Shown: in pieces, positions 1-11,215 of the stretch
Layout: each line of letters opens with the position of its first letter
Position numbering within the stretch: the first letter of the stretch is position 1
Origin: Streptomyces sp. NRRL S-646
GTDB lineage: Bacteria > Actinomycetota > Actinomycetes > Streptomycetales > Streptomycetaceae
Direction: 5' to 3'
Assembly: GCF_000720765.1 (NCBI RefSeq)
Contig: NZ_JODC01000052.1
Location: 1 to 11,216 of the forward strand
Length of the DNA stretch: 11,216 nt
Position numbers and translations under genes: made by a program
Notes under the pieces: generated by a model
What the model was told of the DNA's origin: nothing
Database searches by the model: none
What the model saw: the letters and a program-made list of their open reading frames with translations, nothing else

Positions 1-1433
1 ACCCCGCCACCACCGGCACCCGACCCGGCAGGCACCTCCTGCGGCTCAGCCTCTTCGACCACCTCGGCCTCTTCGAGGATCACATGCGCATTCGTGCCGG
101 AGATGCCGAAGGACGACACACCGGCCCGTCGCGGGCGGTCCTCGGTCTGTGCCCAGTCCTGCGGTTCGTGCAGCAGGTTCACCGCGCCCGCCGTCCAGTC
201 GACGCGGGTGGACGGGGCGTCGATGTGCAGGGTGCGCGGCAGCAGGCCATGCCGCATCGCCATGACCATCTTCATGACTCCGGCGATCCCTGCGGCGGCC
301 TGGGTGTGCCCGATGTTGGACTTCACCGACCCGAGCCACAAAGGCCGTTCACGATTCTGGCCGTAGGTCGCGAGCAGGGCCTGCGCCTCGATCGGGTCGC
401 CCAGCGTCGTACCGGTCCCGTGCGCCTCCACCGCGTCCACGTCCGCCGCCGACAACCCGGCACTCGCCAGCGCCGCCCGGATCACCCGCTGCTGCGACGG
501 ACCGTTCGGGGCGGTCAGACCGTTCGACGCGCCGTCCTGGTTGACCGCGCTTCCCCGCACCACCGCCAGCACCCGATGGCCGTTGCGGCGCGCGTCCGAC
601 AGCCGCTCCAGCAACAGCAGACCCGCACCCTCACCCCACCCGGTACCGTCCGCGGCGTCCGCGAACGGCTTGCAGCGGCCGTCGGGGCCCATGCCGCCCT
701 GGCGGCTGAACTCGACGAAGGCGCCCGGCGTGGACATCACCGCGACGCCGCCGGCCAGCGCCAGCGAGCACTCCCCGGCCCGCAGGGCGTGGGCCGCGAG
801 GTGCAGGGCCACCAGCGAGGAGGAGCACGCGGTGTCGACCGTCACCGCGGGGCCTTCCAGGCCCAGGGTGTAGGCGACGCGTCCGGAGACCACGCTGCCG
901 GTGTTGCCGGTGAGGATGTGTCCCTCGACTTCTTCGGGAATCGTGCGCAGCCCGGAGCCGTACTCCTGGTTGCTGCAGCCGACGAAGACACCGGTGCTGC
1001 TGCCGCGCAGGGCGGCGGGGGCGATGCCCGCGCGTTCCACCGTCTCCCAGGCGACCTCCAGCAGCAGCCGTTGCTGCGGGTCCATGGCCAGGGCCTCGCG
1101 CGGGGAGATGCCGAAGAAGTCGGCGTCGAAGCGGTCGGCGTCATGGACGAAGCCGCCCTGGGTGGCGGTGCTGCCGCCGGTGCCCTCGTGCCCGAACAGT
1201 GCGTCGAGGTCCCAGCCACGGTCGGTGGGGAAGTCCGTCATGGCGTCCGTGCCGTCGGCGAGGAGCCGCCAGAAGTCCTCGGGGGTGTCGGCTCCGCCAG
1301 GCCAGCGGCAGGCCATGGCGACGATGGCGACCGGTTCGGTCATCGCCTCCTGCAACCGCTGGTTGTGCTTGCGCAGTCGGTCGTTCTCCCGGAGCGAGGC
1401 ACGCAGGGCTTCGACGACTTTTTCGGAGGACAT
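1..1433 (-). CDS. Modular type I polyketide synthase, N-terminal part (docking helix + KS), runs off the window
   Basis: This is the start of the next protein in the assembly line; its ketosynthase accepts the chain from the upstream PKS and condenses it with an extender unit. I read 477 codons with no stop. Residues 1-31 are a charged coiled-coil N-terminal docking helix. Residues 34 to about 455 are a full KS with the catalytic triad in place: Cys203 in TACSSS, His338 in EAHGTGT and His376 in KSNIGH. An acidic, then Gly-rich, KS-AT linker follows to the edge. ATG at 1433 is chosen because the docking helix begins at once and a GGAG ribosome site sits 6 bases upstream. The gene lies 67 bases after the upstream PKS stop, on the same strand. 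Slightly odd: the KS opens with AIVAMACRW rather than the common AIVGMACR. The active-site Cys and the docking helix show that this is an extending KS, not a KSQ loading domain. Later domains are outside the window. Confidence 0.96.
70..1334 (-). other. Ketosynthase (KS) domain of the downstream PKS
   Basis: A complete condensing domain of about 420 residues. The nucleophile Cys203 is encoded at 825-827, His338 at 420-422 and His376 at 306-308. The Cys-to-His spacing (135) and His-to-His spacing (38) match those of the KS in the upstream protein. The conserved KS end ([10 protein letters not shown]) falls near base 70. All catalytic residues are present, so it should be active. Confidence 0.95.
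1335..1433 (-). other. N-terminal docking domain (coiled-coil helix)
   Basis: Residues 1-33 form a single amphipathic helix with a heptad-like pattern ([19 protein letters not shown]) directly before the KS. This is the classic form of class 1 N-terminal docking helices in actinomycete PKSs, which dimerise and bind the C-terminal docking tail of the preceding protein. The end of the helix is rich in Arg and Lys, which suits the acidic tail of the upstream PKS. The pairing is inferred from gene order and charge. Confidence 0.88.
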
Positions 1434-1439
1434 GCTCAG

Positions 1440-1443
1440 CTCC
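1440..1443 (-). promoter_or_regulatory. Ribosome binding site of the downstream PKS gene
   Basis: On the minus strand, GGAG is followed by six bases (CTGAGC) and then the ATG at 1433. This is a normal actinomycete Shine-Dalgarno spacing and it fixes the start, since the docking helix begins directly at this ATG. Confidence 0.75.
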
Positions 1444-1475
1444 ACACTTCGCGCTTCGATGCAGACAAGACAGAA

Positions 1476-1517
1476 AAATGATGAGAAAGAAAGCGGGCGC
1501 TCAGTCGTCGGCGCCCA
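1476..1517 (-). terminator. Terminator-like hairpin with pyrimidine tract overlapping the PKS stop codon
   Basis: On the minus strand, GGGCGC (1511-1516) pairs perfectly with GCGCCC (1495-1500) across a 10-base loop that contains the TGA stop. A flanking T-G wobble (1517 with 1494) extends the stem to seven pairs. The run CTTTCTTTCTC and then ATTTTT follows at once, which is strikingly T-rich for this genome. This has the shape of a weak intrinsic terminator or attenuator between two PKS genes expected to be co-transcribed. The stem is short and the T run is interrupted by C, so partial read-through is more plausible than full termination. No convincing promoter is visible in the rest of the 67-base gap. 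Confidence 0.35.
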
Positions 1518-4500
1518 GGGCCATCCGGACGAGTTCGTCCACGTCCATGCCGTCCACGTCCACGTCGTCGACGTCCACGTGGGCGCCGTTCTCCCTGACC
1601 GGCTCCTGGACGGCGGGGGCGGCGGCCGGCGCCAGGTCCATCAGCGCGTTCAGCAGTCCCGACTCGCGGAACCTGCTGATCGGGATGGACGTCAGCAGCT
1701 TGCGGATGGTCGCCTCGTCGGGTTCGCCCGCGCCGGGTTCCGCCGGGCCGGGTTCCGCCCCGCCGGCGAGGTGCTCCCGGCACAGGTGGTCGGCGAGCGC
1801 GGCGGGGGTCGGATAGTCGAAGACCAGGGTGGCGGGCAGCAGTACTCCGATGGCGGTGTTCATCCGGTTGCGCAGTTCGACGGCGGTGAGGGAGTCGAAC
1901 CCGAGTTCCTTGAAGGACTGGTCCGGGTCGATCCGGGCCGCGGAGGCGTGTCCCAGGACGGCGGCGACCTGGCGGCACACCTCCTCGACCAGCCTGCGCT
2001 TCCGGTCCGCCGCGCCGAGCCGGGCCAGTTCGACGGCGAGGTCCGCGCTGTCGCCCGGCTGGGCGGAGAGTGCGCGGTCCGCGACGGTGCGCCGGGTGCG
2101 GGCCAGGCCTTGCAGCAGCTCAGGCACCGGGGCCTCGGCACCGAGCCGGGAGGTGTCCACCGCCAGCGGCAGCCGCACGGCCGCCGGCTCGTCCAGGGCC
2201 TCGGTGAACAGGGCCAGGCCCTCCTTCGGCGCGAGCGGCGGCAGTCCGGCCCGTCCCATGCGGCGGACGTCGGCGTCGGTGAGGCCGCTGGTCATGCCGG
2301 TGGCCTGGGACCAGGGTCCCCAGGGCAGCGACAGTGCGGGCAGGCCCAGGGCGCGCCGGTGCTCGGCGAGCGCGTCGAGGAAGGCGTTGGCCGCGGCGTA
2401 GTTGCCCTGGCCGGGTGCGCCGAGGGTGCCCGCGACGGAGGAGAACAGGACGAACGCGGCCAGGTCGAGGGGGCGTGTGAGGTCGTGCAGATGGGCGGCG
2501 GCGTCCAGCTTGGGGCGCAGTACGGCGTCCAGCCGCTCGGGGGTGAGGTGGTCCACCACTGTGTCGTCGAGGACGCCGGCGGCGTGTACGACGGCGGTCA
2601 GCGGATGTTGGTCGGGGACGGAGGCGAGCAGCGCGGCGGCCTGGTCGCGGTCGGCGACGTCCGTCGCCCGCAGGTGCACCGTGGCACCCAACTCCTTCAG
2701 TTCCGTGGCGAGTTGCTGCGCTCCGGGAGCGGCGGGTCCGCGGCGCGAGGCGAGCAGCAGGTGGTGTACACCGTGCTCGGTGACCAGGTGGCGGGCGAGC
2801 AGGGCGCCGAGGCCGCTCGTGCCGCCGGTGATCAGGACGGTGCCGTCCGGGTCGAGCGGTGCGGGGACGGTGAGGACGACCTTGCCGATGTGGCGGGCCT
2901 GCGACATGTACCGGAAGGCCTCCGGCGCGCGCCGCACGTCCCACGGGGTGACCGGCAGCGGGGTGAGCACTCCGGCTTCGAAGAGCTCGACGAGGGCGGT
3001 GAGCATCTCGCCGATGCGGTCGGGGCCTGCCTCGATGAGGTCGAACGCCCGGTAGTGGACGCCGGGGTGGCGGGCGGCGACCTCCTCGGCGTCGCGTACG
3101 TCGGTCTTGCCCATCTCCAGGAAGTGTCCGCCGCGCGGCAGCAGCCGCAGGGAGGCGTCGACGAACTCGCCCGCCAGGGAGTCCAGGACGAGGTCGACCC
3201 CGCGGTCGCCGGTCGCGGCACGGAAGGCGGCCTCGAAGGACAGGTCGCGGGAGGAGGCGATGTGCGTGTCGTCCAGTCCGGCGGCGCGCAGTGCGCCCCA
3301 CTTTCCGGGGCCGGCGGTGGCGTACACCTCGGCGCCCAGGTGGCGGGCGAGCTGGGTGGCGGCCATGCCGACGCCGCCGGCCGCCGCGTGCACGAGGACG
3401 GTCTGGCCCGGGGTGACGCCGCCGAGGTCGACGAGGGCGTAGTAGGCGGTGAGGAAGACGATCGGCACGGTCGCCGCCTGGGCGAACGTCCAGCCGTCCG
3501 GGATGCGGCAGACGGTGCGTGCGTCGGCCACCGCGACGGGCCCGTAGGCGGCGGGGAACATGCCCATGACGCGGTCGCCGACGGCGAGACCGGTCACTCC
3601 GGGGCCGACCTCGGTGATCACTCCGGCGCCCTCCAGGCCGAAGTCGCGGGCCGGGCCGGGGTACATGCCGAGGGCGTTGAGCACGTCACGGAAGTTGACT
3701 CCGGCGACGCGGACGGCGATGCGTATCTCGCCGTCGGCGAGGGCGCGTTCGGCGTCGGGGGCGGCGACGAGTTCCAGGCCGTCGAGGGTGCCCTTGCGGA
3801 CCATGTCCAGCCGCCAGGCCGTCCCGGTGGGGGTGTGCGGGGGACGCAGCGCGGCGTCCGGGTCGGTACGGGCGATGCGCGGCAGGTGTACGGAGCCGTC
3901 GCGCAGGGCCAGTTGGGAGTCGGCGCGGCCGAGCGCGGCGGGCAGGGCGGCCAGTGAGGCGGCGGCCGTGTCGGTGTCGACGAGGACGAACCGGCCCGGG
4001 TGTTCGGACTGTGCCGAGCGCACCAGGCCCCAGGCCGCCGCCGCGGCGGGGTGGCGCACTCCGGGTCCGGCGGGCCCGTCCGGCATCAGCGCCTCGCGGG
4101 TCACCAGCACCAGCCGGGTCGCGGCCAGCCGCTCTTCGGCCAGCAACTGTCGTACGAGGGTGAGGGCGTGCTGTGCCGCCGCGTGTCCCGCCTCGTCCAG
4201 CGGACCGCTGTCGTGGGGTACGACGGCGAGTACGGTGCCGGGCGCGGTGTCGGCTCCGGCCGCCGCGAGGGCGGCGAGGTCGGCGGCCTCGGTGATGTCG
4301 GCGGGCACACCGGCTGCGGCGAGCCGGTCGGTGAACTCCCGTCCCGCGGCGTCGCCGAGGACGGTCAGCGTGCCCGGGTCCGGCCGTTCGCCGGAGTTGC
4401 CGTCGGTGGCCGGCTTCGGCTGCCAGTCGAGGCGGAACAGGTCGCCCGCGCCCCGGTCGGGCCGTTCCCGCAGCCGCTCGGGGTCGATCTCGCGCAGGGT

Positions 4501-7500
4501 GAGCGAGCCGATGGAGGCGACGGGCCGCCCGGTGGCGTCGGCCACGTCGAGGGCGACGGCGTCGTCGCCGCGCAGGATGAGCCGGACGCGTACGGCGGTG
4601 GCGCCGGTGGCGTGCAGGGTCACGTCCCGCCAGGAGAACGGCAGCCGCCCGGGCGCGGAGTCGTCCAGCGGCAGGAAGGCGGTGGCGTGCAGGGCGGCGT
4701 CCAGCAGGGCGGGGTGCAGCCCGTAGTGGGGGGCGTCGGCGTGCACTTGTTCCGGGAGGGCGATCTCGGCGTACACGTCGCCGTCGAGCCGCCAGGCGGC
4801 GCGCAGGCCCTGGAAGACGGGCCCGTAGCCGAAGCCGGCCGCGGCGAGGCGGTCGTAGGTGTCGTCGACGGGCAGTTCCTCGGCGCCCGCGGGCGGCCAG
4901 GCGGCGAGCTCGGCGCCGTCGGCCTCGGGCCGGGCTCCGGCGGCGATGATGCCGTCGGCGTGCAGGGTCCAGGGCCGGTCGGGGGCGGCGTCGGCGGGGC
5001 GGGAGCGCACCCCGACCTGGCGGTTGCCGTCGTTGTCGGGTGCGCCGACCCGCAGCTGGAGGGTGACGGCCTGTCCGGCGGCCAGCAACAGCGGTTCCAC
5101 CAGGGTCAGTTCGGTCACCCGGTCGCAGTCCACCCGGTCCCCGGCCAGCAGTGCCAGGTCGAGGTAGGCGGTGCCGGGCAGGACGGTGGTGCCGCCGACG
5201 GCGTGGTCGGCGAGCCACGGCTGGTCCGCGACGGAGAGCCGGCTGGTGAAGACGTGGCCGTCGCCGTCGGCGAGGTCGACGCGGGCGCCGAGCAGCGGGT
5301 GCCCGGCTTCGGCGAGGCCCGCGGCGGCGAGGTCGCCCGCGCCCCGGCCGCCCGCGGCGGGCCAGTAGCGCTGCCGTTGGAAGGCGTAGGTGGGAAGGTC
5401 GACGATCTCGCGGGAGCCCCCGGTGGCGGCGCTCCAGTCGACGTCGACGCCATGGGCGTGGGCGCGGGCCAGTCCGGCGAGCAGGCTGCCGGTCTCGTCC
5501 TGGCCGGGGCGCAGCAGCGCGATGGCGGCGGTGTCGGCGGGGGCGGCTTGGGCGTCGGCGGTCAGCGCGGTCAGGGTGCCGTCGGGGCCGATCTCGAGGT
5601 ACCGGCGGACGCCCAGGTCGTCGAGGGTGCGCACGCCGTCGTGGAATCGGACGGCCCGGCGCACATGCCGGACCCAGTAGTCGGGGGAGGCGAGTTCGTC
5701 GCTGGTGGCGGTTCGGCCGGTGACGTCGGAGACCACGGGGATACGCGGCTCGTGGTACTCCAGCGCGGCGCATGCCTCGCGGAATTCGTCGAGCATGGGC
5801 TCCATCAGCGGGGAGTGGAAGGCGTGGCTGACGCGCAGCCGCTTGGTGCGCCGGCCCAGGCTCTCGATGTGGGCGGCGACTTCCAGTACGGCGGCCTCCT
5901 CGCCGGAGACCACCACGGACCGGGGGCCGTTGACGGCGGCCACACCGACCTGGTGCTCCCGGCCGTCCAGCAGCGGCAGCACCTCCTCCTCGGCGGCCTG
6001 GAGCGCGACCATGGCGCCGCCGTCGGGGAGGGCGTCCATGAGCGTGCCGCGGGCGGCGACCAGGGCGCAGGCGTCGGCGAGGGAGAGCACTCCGGCGGCG
6101 TGCACGGCGGCGAGGGAGCCGATGGAGTGGCCGAGCAGCTGGTCGGGGTGCACGCCGAGGCTGCGGACGAGCCGGTACAGGGCGACTTCCAGCGCGAACA
6201 GGGCCGGCTGGGCGTACCCGGTACGGTCCAGCAGCCGTCCGGCGTCGCCCAGGACGGTCTCGCGCAGGGGGGTGCCGAGGACATCGGCGCCGAAGTGGGC
6301 GCACACCTCGTCGAAGGCGTCGGCGAACACCGGGAAGGTGGCGTACAACTCACGTCCCATTCCTGGGCGTTGGGATCCCTGCCCGGTGAACAGGAAGGCC
6401 GTTCGCCCGCCGCGGGCGGCGGCGCCGGGCCCGTCGGCCGGCAGGTCGCCCGAGGCGAGCCGGGCCAGGTCGGCGAGCAGGTCGTCGCGTCCCGTGCCGA
6501 GCAGTACCGCACGGTGTTCGAAGGCGGGGCGGGTGGTCGCCAGTGAGTGGCCGAGGTCGGCGGCGGACAGTTCAGGGTGCCGGACGGCGTGGTCGAGCAG
6601 CCTCTCGGCCTGGGCGCGCAGCGCCTCGGGCGTACGGGCCGACAGCGGCCAGGCGGTCGTCCCGTGCGTGACCGGCCGCCCGGAGGCGTGCGGGACCTCC
6701 TCCGGCACGGGCCGCGGGGCCTCTTCCAGGATCACATGGGCGTTGGTGCCGCTGAAGCCGAAGGACGAGACGCCCGCGCGCCGTCGGCGGTCCTCGTCCC
6801 GCTGCCACGGCCGGGCCTCGGTGAGCAGACGTACGGCGCCGGAGGCCCAGTCGACATGGGTGGAGGGCCGGTCGGCGTGCAGGGTGCGGGGCAGTTCGCC
6901 GTGACGCAGCGCCAGCACCGTCTTGATGACACCGGCGACGCCGGCGGCGGCCTGGGTGTGCCCGAGGTTCGACTTCACCGACCCCAGCCACAGCGGCCTT
7001 TCACGGTCCTGCCCGTAGGCGGCCAGGAGTGCCTGTGCCTCGATGGGGTCGCCGAGGACGGTGCCGGTGCCGTGTCCCTCGATGGCGTCGATGTCGGCCG
7101 GTGTGAGCCCGGCGTCGGCCAGCGCGGCCCGGATCACACGTTCCTGGGAGGGGCCGTTGGGCGCGGTCAGACCATTGCTGGCACCGTCGGAGTTGACGGC
7201 GCTGCCGCGCACCACGGCGAGCACCCGGTGCCCGTTGCGGCGGGCGTCGGACAGGCGCTCCACCAGCAGCATCCCGGCGCCCTCGCCCCAGCCGGTACCG
7301 TCCGCGTCGTCCGCGTACGCCTTGCAGCGCCCGTCCGGCGCGAGGCCGCGCTGGCGGCTGAACTCCAGGAACGCCGCCGGTGTCGACATCACGGTGACGC
7401 CGCCCGCGAGCGCCAGGTCGCACTCCCCCGCGCGCAGCGCCCGCACCGCCCAGTGCAGGGCGACCAGAGAGGAGGAGCAGGCGGTGTCGACGGTGACGGC

Positions 7501-10500
7501 GGGGCCCTCCAGGCCGAGGGTGTACGAGATACGGCCGGAGACGACGCTGGCGGCGTTTCCGGTGCCGAGGTAGCCGTCGAAGTCCTCCGTGGACGTCCGC
7601 AGCAGGGCCGTGTAGTCCTGCCCGTTGGTGCCGGCGAAGACGCCCGTGCGGGAGCCGCGCAGGGTCCGCGGGTCGACACCGGCCCGCTCCACGGCTTCCC
7701 AGCACACCTCGAGCAGCAGCCGCTGCTGGGGGTCCATGGCCAGGGCCTCGCGCGGTGAGATGCCGAAGAACGCGGGGTCGAACCGGTCGGCTCCGGCCAG
7801 GAAGCCGCCGGTGCGGGTGTAGCTGGTGCCCTCGTGGTCGGGGTCCGGGTGGTACAGCGAAGTGAGGTCCCAGCCGCGGTCGTCGGGGAAGCCGGTCAGG
7901 CCGTCGCCGCCCGAGGCGAGCAGGTCCCACAGCCGCTCGGGGGTGTCGGCGCCGCCGGGGAGCCGGCAGGCCATGCCGACGATGGCGATGGGGTCGTCCG
8001 CGCCCGTGTGCGTGTGGCGGGCCGGGGTGGTGGCGGCCGGGGCGGGCCGGTCGCCGGTCGGCAGGGCGCGCAGCAGATGGGCGGCGAGCGCGGCCGGGGT
8101 GGGGTGGTCGAAGGCGACGGTGGGCGCGAGCCGTATGCCGGTGCGGCGTTCCAGCGCGTTGCGCAGGTCGACGGCGGTCAGCGAGTCGAAGCCCAGGTCG
8201 CGGAAGGCGCGTTCGGGGTCGGCGGCCGGAGCGCCCGCGGTGTGGCCGAGGACGGTGGCGATCTCCGTCTGGAGCAGGCGCAGGACGGCGGCGGACCGCT
8301 CGGACTCCGGCAGCGCGGCGAGCGTACGGGCCAGCCGTCCACCCGATCGGTCCGCCCCCGCGGTACGGCGTACGGAGGCCCCGGGGGCGCGCAGCAGGGC
8401 CGGGGTGGGGGTGGCGGCGGCGCGAGCGGCGGCCAGGTCCAGCCGCACGGGCAGGAGCACCGCGCGGTCCTGCGCCAGGCCGAGGTCGAGCCGGTTGAGG
8501 GCGTCCTCGGTGGGCAGCGGCTCGATGCCCGCACGGGCCATCCGGGAGCGGTCGGCGTCCCCGAGCTCTGCCGTCATGCCGCTGTCCTCGGCCCACAGCC
8601 CCCAGCCGAGGGCGAGCGCTGGCCGGCCCTGCGCCCGCAGGGTGGCGGCCAGCGCCTCCAAGAAGGCGTTGGCGGCCGCGTAGTTGCCCTGGCCCGGGCC
8701 GCCGAAGGTGGCGGCGGCGGACGAGAAGAGCACGAACGCCGACAGGTCCATGTCCCGGGTGAGCCGCTCCAGGTGGACGGCGGCGTCCGCCTTGGGCCGC
8801 AGCACGGCCGACAGGCGCCCCGCGGTCAGCGCGGGGATCACCCCGTCGTCGATCACCCCGGCGGCGTGGAAGACGGCACCGAGCGGATGCTCCTGCGGTA
8901 CGGCGTCCAGGAGCGCCGCCAGCGCGGCGGGATCGGCCACGTCACACGCGGCGACCGCCACCTCGGCACCGGCCTGTTCGAGTGCGGCGCGCAACTCGGC
9001 GGCACCGGGGGCGTCCGGGCCGCGTCGGCTCGCGAGCAGCAGATGCCGTACTCCGTGCGCGGCGACCAGGTGCCGGGCGACGGCCGCGGCGACGGTGCCG
9101 CTCGCCCCGGTGATCAGCACGGTGCGCTGCGGATCGAGGGCCGGCGCCGTGGAGCGGTCCGGGTGGTGCCGGGCGAGGCGGGCGGCGTAGGTGCGACCGG
9201 CCCGCAGGGCGATCTCCGTCTCCCCGCTCCGCACCGCCTCGCCGACGGCGGCGAGGAGGGCCTCCGGGTCGGTCTCGGCGTCGCTTTCGGGGTCGTTGTC
9301 CGGAGCGATGTCCACGAGCAGGAAGCGCCCCGGGTTCTCCGACTGCGCGGAGCGCACCAGACCGCGTACGGCGGCCGAGGCGAGGTCGGCGACCGGCTCG
9401 CCGGGCCGGACGGCCACCGCGTTCCGGGTGACCACGACGAGCCGGGCGTCGGCGGTCCGCTCCGTGGCCTGCCAGCGCTGCAGCAGCTCCAGGGCCGTGG
9501 CGGTCGCCTCGTGCGTGGCGGCGGGCAGGTCCGCGTCGCCGGCCTGCCAGGACACGAGGACCAGTTCCGGCACGGGTGTGCCGGGGTCGTCGAGGGCGGA
9601 CAGGAAGGCGTCCGGGTCCGGGTACCGGTGGCCGTCCACCAGGGCCGTGCCGGCACCCACCACGGCCACCGAGGGCCGGTGCGCGGGCGCCGGCACGGCG
9701 GGCAGTTCGGTCCAGTCGACGACGAACAGGTCGTCCGCGGCCGGGGAGGCGGCGGGCAGGTTCAGTTCGTCGGCAGGGGTGAGGGTGACAGCGCCGACGG
9801 CGGCGACCGGGGCGCCGGACTCGTCGGCGAGGTCCAGCCGCAGCCCGCCCTCGGGCAGCGACCGCAGCCGGACCCGCAGTACCTCCGCGGAAGCCGCGTA
9901 CAGGGTGCAGTCCCGCCAGGTCACGGCGACGCCACCGGGGTGGCCGAGCGCGGGAGCCACGTGCAGCGCCGCCTCCAGCAGTGCCGGGTGCAGGGCGACC
10001 CGCAGGGCGTCCGCCCGGAATTCCTCCGGTACGGCGACCTCGGCGTACGCCTCGTCTCCCGCCCGCCAGACAGCGGTGAGCCCGCGGAAGGCGGGCCCGT
10101 GGTCCAGCCCCCGGCCCCGCAACTCCTCGTAGATCTCCTCGACTTCATCGACGTCGAGAGCCTCGGCACCGGGCGGCGGCCAGCTGCCGCCGGGTGCGGC
10201 CTGGTCGGGCCGCTCCGGCTCGGCACCGGCCGGCGCCAAAGCCCCTCGGGCGTTGCACGTCCAGGGCAGGCCGACCTCGGCGTCGTCGACGGAGCCGACG
10301 GTGGCCGGCCGCGAGTAGCAGGCGAAGGGCCTGACGCCGCCGTCCCCCGGGCCGTCGAGCACGACCTGGATTTCGACCGGTTCATGACCTTGGAGTACGA
10401 GCGGCTGCTCCTGGCCGATTTCCACGATGCGGTGGCAGCCGACCCGGCCGCCGAGATGCAGGGCGAAGTCGAGGTAGGCGGCGGTGGGAAGCACGGTGCT

Positions 10501-11127
10501 GCCCGCCACCGTGTGGTCGGCCAGCCAGGGGTGCGTGCGCGTGGAGAGCACGGTGGTGGACAGCACGGCGGAGGAGTCCGCCAGGGTCACCGCGGAGCCG
10601 AGCAGCGGGTGCCCGCCGCCACGCCGCCCGCCGCCGGGCATCGGATCGAGCCAGAGGCGGCGCTGTTGGAAGGCGTACGTGGGCAGTTCGACGTTCCGCG
10701 CGCCCGGGAACAGTGCGGACCAGTCCGGGCTGTGCCCGTGCACATGCAGGGCGCCAACGGCACCGAGCAGAGTTTCCGCCTCCGATCCCTCCTTGCGCAG
10801 CGCGGGCACCAGAACACGGCGGTCGTCGTCGAGCAGGGTGCGGGCGAGAGCTGTGAGGGTGCCGTCCGGGCCGAGTTCGACGAAGCGGGTGACCTTGCTC
10901 CGTGCGAGGGTGTGGACGGCGTCGGCGTACCGGACGGTGCGGCGCACGTGCTGCACCCAGTAGTCCGGCGACATCACCTCGTCGGCGGTGGCCTCCTCGC
11001 CGGTCACCGTGGAGACCAGAGGCAGCCTCGGCCGCTCGTACGACAACTCTTCCGCCACCGCACGGAAGTCCGCCAGCATCGGCTCCATCAGCGGCGAGTG
11101 AAAGGCATGACTGACCCGCAGCCTGCA
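1501..11127 (-). CDS. Modular type I polyketide synthase (AT')-DH-KR-ACP / KS-AT-DH-ER-KR-ACP-docking, 5' end missing or disrupted
   Basis: A giant cytosolic multienzyme that extends a polyketide chain by two malonyl units. The open frame runs from just inside the first AT to TGA at 1501-1503. Residues below are numbered from the first in-frame ATG at 11088 (3195 residues), but this ATG lies inside the AT motif and is not a genuine start. Order: AT C-terminal half; DH (H192, E372); KR (S790, Y803, N807); ACP (S969); KS (C1204, H1339, H1377); AT (S1655, HAFH 1755-1758); DH (H1962, D2130); ER; KR (S2884, Y2897, N2901); ACP (S3066); docking tail. There is no thioesterase, so the chain passes to the next protein, whose gene starts 67 bases downstream. 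Upstream of 11127 this frame meets a TGA (11128-11130), and the AT continues in another frame after a gap of about 194 bases relative to the sister AT. The gene is therefore either mutated or misassembled there. Confidence 0.96.
1504..1720 (-). other. C-terminal docking domain with acidic Val-Asp repeat
   Basis: After the last ACP and a Pro/Glu-rich linker come [20 protein letters not shown] and NALMDLA (the dimerising helices of class 1 docking domains). The protein ends with a short recognition helix ([11 protein letters not shown]). Between them lies an unusually regular acidic stretch, [18 protein letters not shown]. The tail is expected to bind the N-terminal coiled coil of the protein encoded from 1433. 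Confidence 0.88.
1537..1581 (-). repeat. Short imperfect repeat encoding the Val-Asp run of the docking tail
   Basis: The coding strand repeats GTGGACGT/GACGTGGAC units several times (on the plus strand, gtccac and cacgtc alternate through this stretch). The codons are in phase and give alternating Val and Asp. The pattern could grow or shrink by in-frame slippage in units of six bases, which is an inference. Confidence 0.6.
1768..2000 (-). other. Acyl carrier protein (ACP) of module B
   Basis: [13 protein letters not shown] contains Ser3066 (codon 1891-1893), the phosphopantetheine site, and [13 protein letters not shown] follows. As the last carrier of this protein, it holds the chain for transfer to the KS of the next PKS. 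Confidence 0.95.
2150..2853 (-). other. Ketoreductase (KR) catalytic domain of module B, B-type
   Basis: A Rossmann motif with intact glycines (TGGTSGLG), the LDD signature of B-type KRs ([10 protein letters not shown]), Lys in LRPK, Ser2884, Tyr2897 in GQGNYAAAN (codon 2398-2400) and Asn2901. It makes the D-hydroxyl used by the DH of the same module. Confidence 0.95.
2862..3813 (-). other. Enoylreductase (ER) domain of module B
   Basis: A medium-chain reductase-type ER from KGTLDGLEL to the [10 protein letters not shown] end. It contains [15 protein letters not shown] and the NADPH loop [19 protein letters not shown], then the conserved [13 protein letters not shown]. It reduces the enoyl intermediate to a saturated chain. 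The Tyr in GMYPG is the residue type linked to S-configured alpha-methyl centres, but the malonyl extender here leaves no methyl to set. Confidence 0.95.
3850..4446 (-). other. Structural subdomain of the module B ketoreductase
   Basis: A degenerate Rossmann half starting at DLFRLDWQP and including the conserved [19 protein letters not shown] stretch. As is usual in fully reducing modules, it is separated from the catalytic KR half by the inserted ER. It has no catalytic residues and its role is structural. Confidence 0.85.
4495..5301 (-). other. Dehydratase (DH) domain of module B
   Basis: A canonical [10 protein letters not shown], catalytic His1962 in [20 protein letters not shown], and catalytic Asp2130 in [10 protein letters not shown] (codon 4699-4701). 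It is predicted to be active, removing water from the B-type 3-hydroxyl made by the module KR to give an enoyl intermediate for the ER. Confidence 0.94.
5362..6405 (-). other. Acyltransferase (AT) domain of module B, malonyl-CoA specific
   Basis: A complete AT from [11 protein letters not shown] to the post-AT linker [13 protein letters not shown]. The nucleophile is Ser1655 in GHSIG (codon 6124-6126). HAFH at residues 1755-1758 (bases 5815-5826) marks malonyl selection. This intact domain is the internal reference that shows what is missing from the module A AT. Confidence 0.95.
6721..7995 (-). other. Ketosynthase (KS) domain of module B
   Basis: Runs from [15 protein letters not shown] to [10 protein letters not shown]. 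It catalyses decarboxylative condensation of the chain from module A with malonyl-ACP of module B. Cys1204 (TACSSS, codon 7477-7479), His1339 (EGHGTGT) and His1377 (KSNLGH) are all present. A minor variant is VNSDGASNG, where most KS domains, including the one in the next protein, have VNQDGASNG. Confidence 0.96.
8065..8282 (-). other. Acyl carrier protein (ACP) of module A
   Basis: A carrier domain of about 70 residues. [13 protein letters not shown] contains Ser969 (codon at 8182-8184), the phosphopantetheine attachment site. [10 protein letters not shown] closes the domain, as is typical of PKS ACPs. A short Pro/Ala/Thr-rich linker joins it to the KS of module B. Confidence 0.95.
8430..9736 (-). 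other. Ketoreductase (KR) domain of module A, B-type-like
   Basis: The structural half starts near DLFVVDW and the catalytic Rossmann half near VLITGASG. The active-site residues Lys (LRPK), Ser790, Tyr803 (GQGNYAAAN) and Asn807 are present, so ketoreduction is expected. The B-type LDD signature appears as IDD and the A-type Trp is absent (F instead), which points to a D-configured hydroxyl. The third Gly of the NADPH-binding loop is Ala (TGASGTVA). Confidence 0.92.
9769..10611 (-). other. Dehydratase (DH) domain of module A, with a non-canonical catalytic site
   Basis: A DH fold from HPLLGSAV to VTLTPADE. The catalytic His192 is present in [10 protein letters not shown] (HxxxGxxxxP). The second catalytic residue, Asp in HPALLD, is Glu372 here ([10 protein letters not shown]; codon GAG at 9973-9975). 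The Gly after the motif Pro is lost (LPTAAY, against LPGTAY in module B), and the usual GYGP-type motif reads LDHGPAF. Overall length is normal. It could be slow or inactive, which would leave a hydroxyl group; that is an inference. Confidence 0.9.
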
Positions 11128-11215
11128 TCAACCGGCCCCGCGCCACCACCAGACGGCACGCGTCCGCCAGCGACCACACCCCCGCCACATGCGCCGCAGC
11201 GATCTCACCGATGGA
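10684..11215 (-). other. Acyltransferase (AT) domain of module A, malonyl type, internally deleted
   Basis: The segment after the break carries [11 protein letters not shown], then [22 protein letters not shown] and the post-AT LPTYAFQ linker. HAFH, together with Ile after the active-site Ser in the other fragment, indicates malonyl-CoA selection in the established AT code (methylmalonyl ATs have YASH and GHSQG). The domain cannot work as sequenced, because the core between the active-site Ser/Arg part and HAFH is missing. Confidence 0.85.
11119..11215 (-). pseudogene. N-terminal part of the module A acyltransferase, out of frame with the rest of the PKS gene
   Basis: Reading from the right edge, the frame gives SIGEIAAAHVAGVWSLADAC and then ARGRLMQ. 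This is the AT segment from the nucleophile Ser (GHSIG) through the conserved active-site Arg. The next expected stretch (about 65 residues, including the AVNGP region) is absent. The sequence jumps to the coding of RLRVSHAFH in a different frame. If translated as it stands, this frame runs on as nonsense to TGA at 10382-10384. It is the upstream portion of the same PKS gene, broken by a real deletion or by an assembly error near the contig end. Confidence 0.8.

Follow-up and report, generated by a model that had tools for sequence, protein, structure and literature searches.

Does the frame break close to one end of a PKS contig of Streptomyces sp. NRRL S-646 reflect a true null allele, or did it arise when the genome was assembled? 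The window analyzed here is the complete contig NZ_JODC01000052.1 (11,216 bp; hereafter C52, the other contigs of the draft being designated likewise). It belongs to a draft assembly of 163 contigs and 10.70 Mb, which scores as 100% complete with 0.04 contamination. The minus strand of C52 encodes the 3' portion of one type I modular PKS gene, followed by the beginning of the next (Table 1), and the break falls in the acyltransferase (AT) of the module called module A. From sequence comparisons, we consider it very probable that this break arose from a misjoin of unresolved PKS repeats during assembly and is no null allele, and the strain's own module A gene would then be whole.

The Frame Break in Module A

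When the minus strand is read through the junction, an ATG codon (11128-11126) is followed by a single base (11125) and by the Arg codon (11124-11122) that opens RLRVSHAFH, and the frame changes, as an earlier note on this DNA had described; the upstream frame stop that it placed at 10382 is likewise present in the sequence. Regarding the size of the loss, the earlier note had counted 194 missing bases, a value that holds against module B, where the two codons lie 65 codons apart in the translation (195 bases), but not against C47, Streptomyces sp. HD (hereafter HD) and S. bungoensis, all three of which give 185. Among the ten other AT copies of the genome for which both arms of the junction are listed, six have an arm spacing of +185 relative to C52, one of +188 and three of +194, and the HD and S. 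bungoensis orthologues both give +185. As far as these copies tell, module B is a distant yardstick for the size of the loss and not the closest copy. The change of frame nevertheless stands for every size, because 185, 188 and 194 all leave a remainder of 2 on division by three and none is a multiple of three. By contrast, the CAGGCT-like homology proposed for the junction is absent, the parental flanks having one base in common.

Both AT copies (window 11095-11121 and the AT of module B) carry HAFH, a motif usually read as a sign of malonyl-CoA specificity. At the other end of the contig, the repeat at window 1-99 leads into C61:1-444, which continues both C52 and C40 and leaves the gene order beyond this end ambiguous in the draft.

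Table 1. Features of the window (C52) and blunt losses, relative to HD, in the PKS contigs of the draft.
Feature	Contig	Position	Strand	Details
Open frame, 3' part of modular PKS gene	C52	1501..11124	-	3,207 codons open; stop at 1501; Pfam domains: AT C-terminal piece, DH, KR, ACP, then KS, AT, DH, ER, KR, ACP (ER called from zinc-dehydrogenase and GroES-like matches)
Next PKS gene, start only	C52	3..1445	-	Docking domain and KS (Pfam); truncated by contig end
Other contig end, unresolved repeat	C52	1..99	.	99 bases exactly common to ends of C40 and C61
Downstream arm, exact repeat	C52	11030..11121	-	92 bases identical to C61:718-809
Junction (blunt loss)	C52	11120..11121	-	185 bp; these bases of AT core absent relative to C47, HD and S. 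bungoensis; one base shared at join
Upstream arm, AT around active-site motif GHSIGE, cut at contig end	C52	11121..11216	-	96 bases identical to start of C47
Blunt loss	C61	444/445		175 bp; in one 3.6-kb contig with the next
Blunt loss	C61	808/809		218 bp; 1 shared base
Blunt loss	C55	357/358		140 bp
Blunt loss	C55	7166/7167		144 bp
Blunt loss inside PKS frame	C50	11829		182 bp; 0 shared bases
Blunt loss inside PKS frame	C56	274-275		452 bp
Blunt loss inside PKS frame	C53	661		72 bp
Blunt loss inside PKS frame	C60	3363-3365		107 bp
Blunt loss inside PKS frame	C60	3835-3836		262 bp

The Same Gene in Close Relatives

Comparison with HD, itself a draft genome, identified an orthologous PKS gene with the same gene order. 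Positions 1-11121 of the window match NZ_JAQMYP010000066.1 3860-14980 without a gap over 11,121 bp and with 98.0% identity, C40 aligns to 15774-47394 (98.4%) and C61 aligns to 1-3958, in pieces, giving by HD coordinates the order C40, a stretch of 793 bp, C52 and C61. HD differs in that its AT is whole and that one unbroken frame of 4,129 codons runs across the place of the junction; the share of this frame held by C40 amounts to 657 codons, which are free of stops in the NRRL S-646 genome. S. bungoensis has the 185 bases too, with an intact AT, and in both relatives the GHSxG and HAFH-type motifs lie 99 residues apart. More broadly, 75 of the best 80 loci kept carry, at some point of the fetched stretch, an AT in which 94-107 residues of a single frame separate the two motifs. 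The reading of a PKS silenced by a real deletion finds no support, HD and S. bungoensis being intact at this very place.

Origin of the Two Arms

The upstream arm equals C47:1-96 at 96/96 bases, and C52 and C47 begin at the same base. Upstream of the junction, C52 holds no base unique to the locus, as is expected of a misjoin and not of a null allele, which would have unique sequence on both flanks. When the first 58 bases of this arm were searched for across the genome, with up to 3 mismatches allowed, C47 and C52 alone came back, although copies in masked contigs may escape such a search. Compared with HD, the arm shows 1/96 differences from the orthologue of C47 and 4/96 from HD's own copy at the locus. 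Moreover, at arm positions 1, 16 and 19, which distinguish the two HD copies, it is of the C47 type at all three. These bases would speak in favor of a misjoin while falling short of decisive, as about two differences are expected at 2% divergence, and the 4/96 differences do not alone exclude descent from an HD-type copy. In HD, the C47 region runs upstream into the C60 region, and in NRRL S-646 the end of C60 overlaps the start of C47 by 12 bases.

Regarding the downstream arm, C52 and C61 break at the two edges of the 92-base repeat that they have in common, C52 at the upstream edge and C61 at the downstream edge (808-809). C61 carries a version of the 185 bases missing from C52.

Similar Losses in Other PKS Contigs

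A survey of blunt losses against HD covered ten PKS contigs (C52, C61, C55, C50, C56, C53, C60, C40, C47 and the tail of C7), and break sizes and junction bases were obtained by an ungapped recount against HD. The PKS-like C57, C58, C59 and C62 were left out, since none of them matched the fetched HD contigs over a long stretch. Ten losses were found in seven contigs, namely the one in C52 plus nine (72-452 bp) in six others; C40, C47 and the C7 tail show no blunt loss against HD. The C7 tail had supplied an eleventh candidate, which was dropped as a tandem-repeat difference. The size of the loss is not a multiple of three in 8/10 events, and between zero and two bases are shared at the join in 10/10, with the HD frame long and open across each of the nine other loss sites. 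In C55, two AT copies break off at the same base after an identical left arm of 99 bases, and each picks up again at a different point. C61:1-444 matches the 793-bp stretch of HD (95.3%) about as well as it does the place of the next module (95.0%), and looks like a collapsed repeat. The AT piece of C61 was also considered as the one belonging to module A; it was not reassigned, C61:445-717 being nearer to the place of the next module in HD (94.9%) than to that of module A (88.6%).

Repeat Edges, Contig Ends and Background Gaps

In 7/10 events, the break lies at most 8 bp from an edge of an exact repeat of 89-99 bp. These seven are partly dependent, since the C55 pair has a single 99-base arm in common and the 92-base repeat belongs to both C52 and C61. 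Of 2,000 positions drawn at random from the same contigs, one has such an edge for a repeat of at least 85 bp, and 20 for a repeat of at least 50 bp. For the breaks at C61:444, C50 and C56, the contigs read show no such repeat edge. A looser count, in which one repeat (C56) lies clear of the break, finds a repeat of at least 50 bp anywhere within 100 bp of the break in 8/10 events, versus 7.3% of 600 positions.

Contig ends were surveyed in parallel on 86 ends, namely the start of each of C1-C62 and the opposite end of 24 of them. Exact shared ends of at least 10 bp were found in 24 pairs, 19 of them at exactly 99 bp, C52/C47 at 96 bp and the rest at 28, 25, 12 and 12 bp, a distribution that points to an assembler word size of 99. 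The break in C52 coincides with the edges of two repeats of about this size, one of 96 and one of 92 bases, as a misjoin would have it. The overlaps of 28 bases (C53 start and C56 end) and of 25 bases (C51 end and C7 start) could belong to unjoined neighbors.

Inside the aligned blocks (117.7 kb, with 444 bp of C61 counted twice), there are two gaps of at least 15 bp, the larger being 18 bp. This background rate rests on the aligned blocks of the ten contigs because the non-PKS control failed, C45 having only a partial match in HD (89% over 1,160/3,001 bases) and C48 having no orthologue there.

Misjoin, Chimeric Molecule or Real Deletion

If the break is a misjoin, the true AT of module A would lie in the stretch between C40 and C52 (793 bp in HD), which is not continuous in the contigs read; the missing piece could be in C63-C80, which are masked, or in later contigs, none of which was read except C100, which was not used. 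The unique sequence of C52, which starts in the 92-base repeat of C61, would have been bluntly joined to a 96-base piece that also opens C47, and this join would skip 185 bases and break the frame on paper only. The agent would be a short-read assembler, if the reads were of the short type that we infer, joining through unresolved PKS repeats. What speaks for such a misjoin is that the repeats are of word size, the joins blunt and the upstream arm a copy of a contig end, that relatives are intact and that such losses recur. Indeed, the earlier judgment that a misjoin between AT copies was at least as likely as a deletion is strongly supported by the intact relatives, the arm copied from C47 and the nine sister events. 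Two observations sit less well with a misjoin: three of the ten events are without a repeat edge in readable contigs, and the shared end measures 96 and not 99 bases, leaving over a difference of three bases that a simple fork at word size, at the right end of C52, does not explain. This shorter shared end, with C52 and C47 starting at the same base, and the blunt join with its one shared base would also suit a chimeric read or library molecule that made the junction and extended a dead end of C52. We regard such an origin as unlikely, since the repeat edges of 89-99 bp at 7/10 breaks and the common left arm of the two C55 breaks point to the assembly graph, and the join was probably made by an assembler step rather than by a chimeric read. 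Were a chimeric molecule nonetheless responsible, the junction would still be an artefact and the verdict on the gene would be the same.

Very improbable, in our view, is a real frameshifting deletion of 185 bp in the AT of module A, that is, a null PKS allele whose arm became identical to C47 by gene conversion or by chance. The junction does stand in the contig, and a real deletion beside a C47-identical arm would end the contig exactly where it ends, which takes some weight from the contig end as an argument for a misjoin. Among the collections used, from which records very near this genome may be missing, no second assembly of the strain that might carry the junction was found. However, HD and S. 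bungoensis are intact. The nine similar losses in six other contigs would also need to be real, most of them breaking the frame and most sitting at the edges of word-size repeats, while elsewhere the aligned sequence has gaps of 18 bp at most. Nor do the routes by which such a deletion might form fit the junction. A microhomology-mediated deletion through CAGGCT would need several shared bases, and the parental flanks share one. As for recombination between AT copies, an in-register crossover should keep the length of the AT, and a break lying 185 bases out of register with one shared base would be unlike its product. Least probable of all would be a recent real loss of 185 bp following conversion of the upstream part to the C47 copy, with several PKS genes jointly eroding through short deletions, out of register, where domain repeats are nearly identical.

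Implications for Reading PKS Clusters

According to excerpts of a review, repeats in clusters of this kind cause misassembly (PMC5484115), and excerpts of a Streptomyces study report an earlier assembly in which repeats had collapsed and contig boundaries cut through PKS clusters (PMC3731836). The case of C52 resembles what these excerpts describe in having repeated domains, contigs that end within these domains and probable misjoins that give a false picture of the cluster (PMC5484115; PMC3731836). It differs by its signature of small, blunt, frame-shifting losses inside contigs, seen against a relative, which goes beyond the fragmentation and collapse covered in the same excerpts (PMC5484115; PMC3731836). 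The frame break of C52 is most likely not a real feature, and the locus most likely ordinary as biology. Misjoins of this type may be suspected even without reads, from breaks at the edges of exact repeats of about word size, from arms that duplicate the end of another contig and from a close relative in which the gene is whole. As ten such joins stand in an assembly that is scored as complete, genome mining would call broken or odd PKS modules in this strain.
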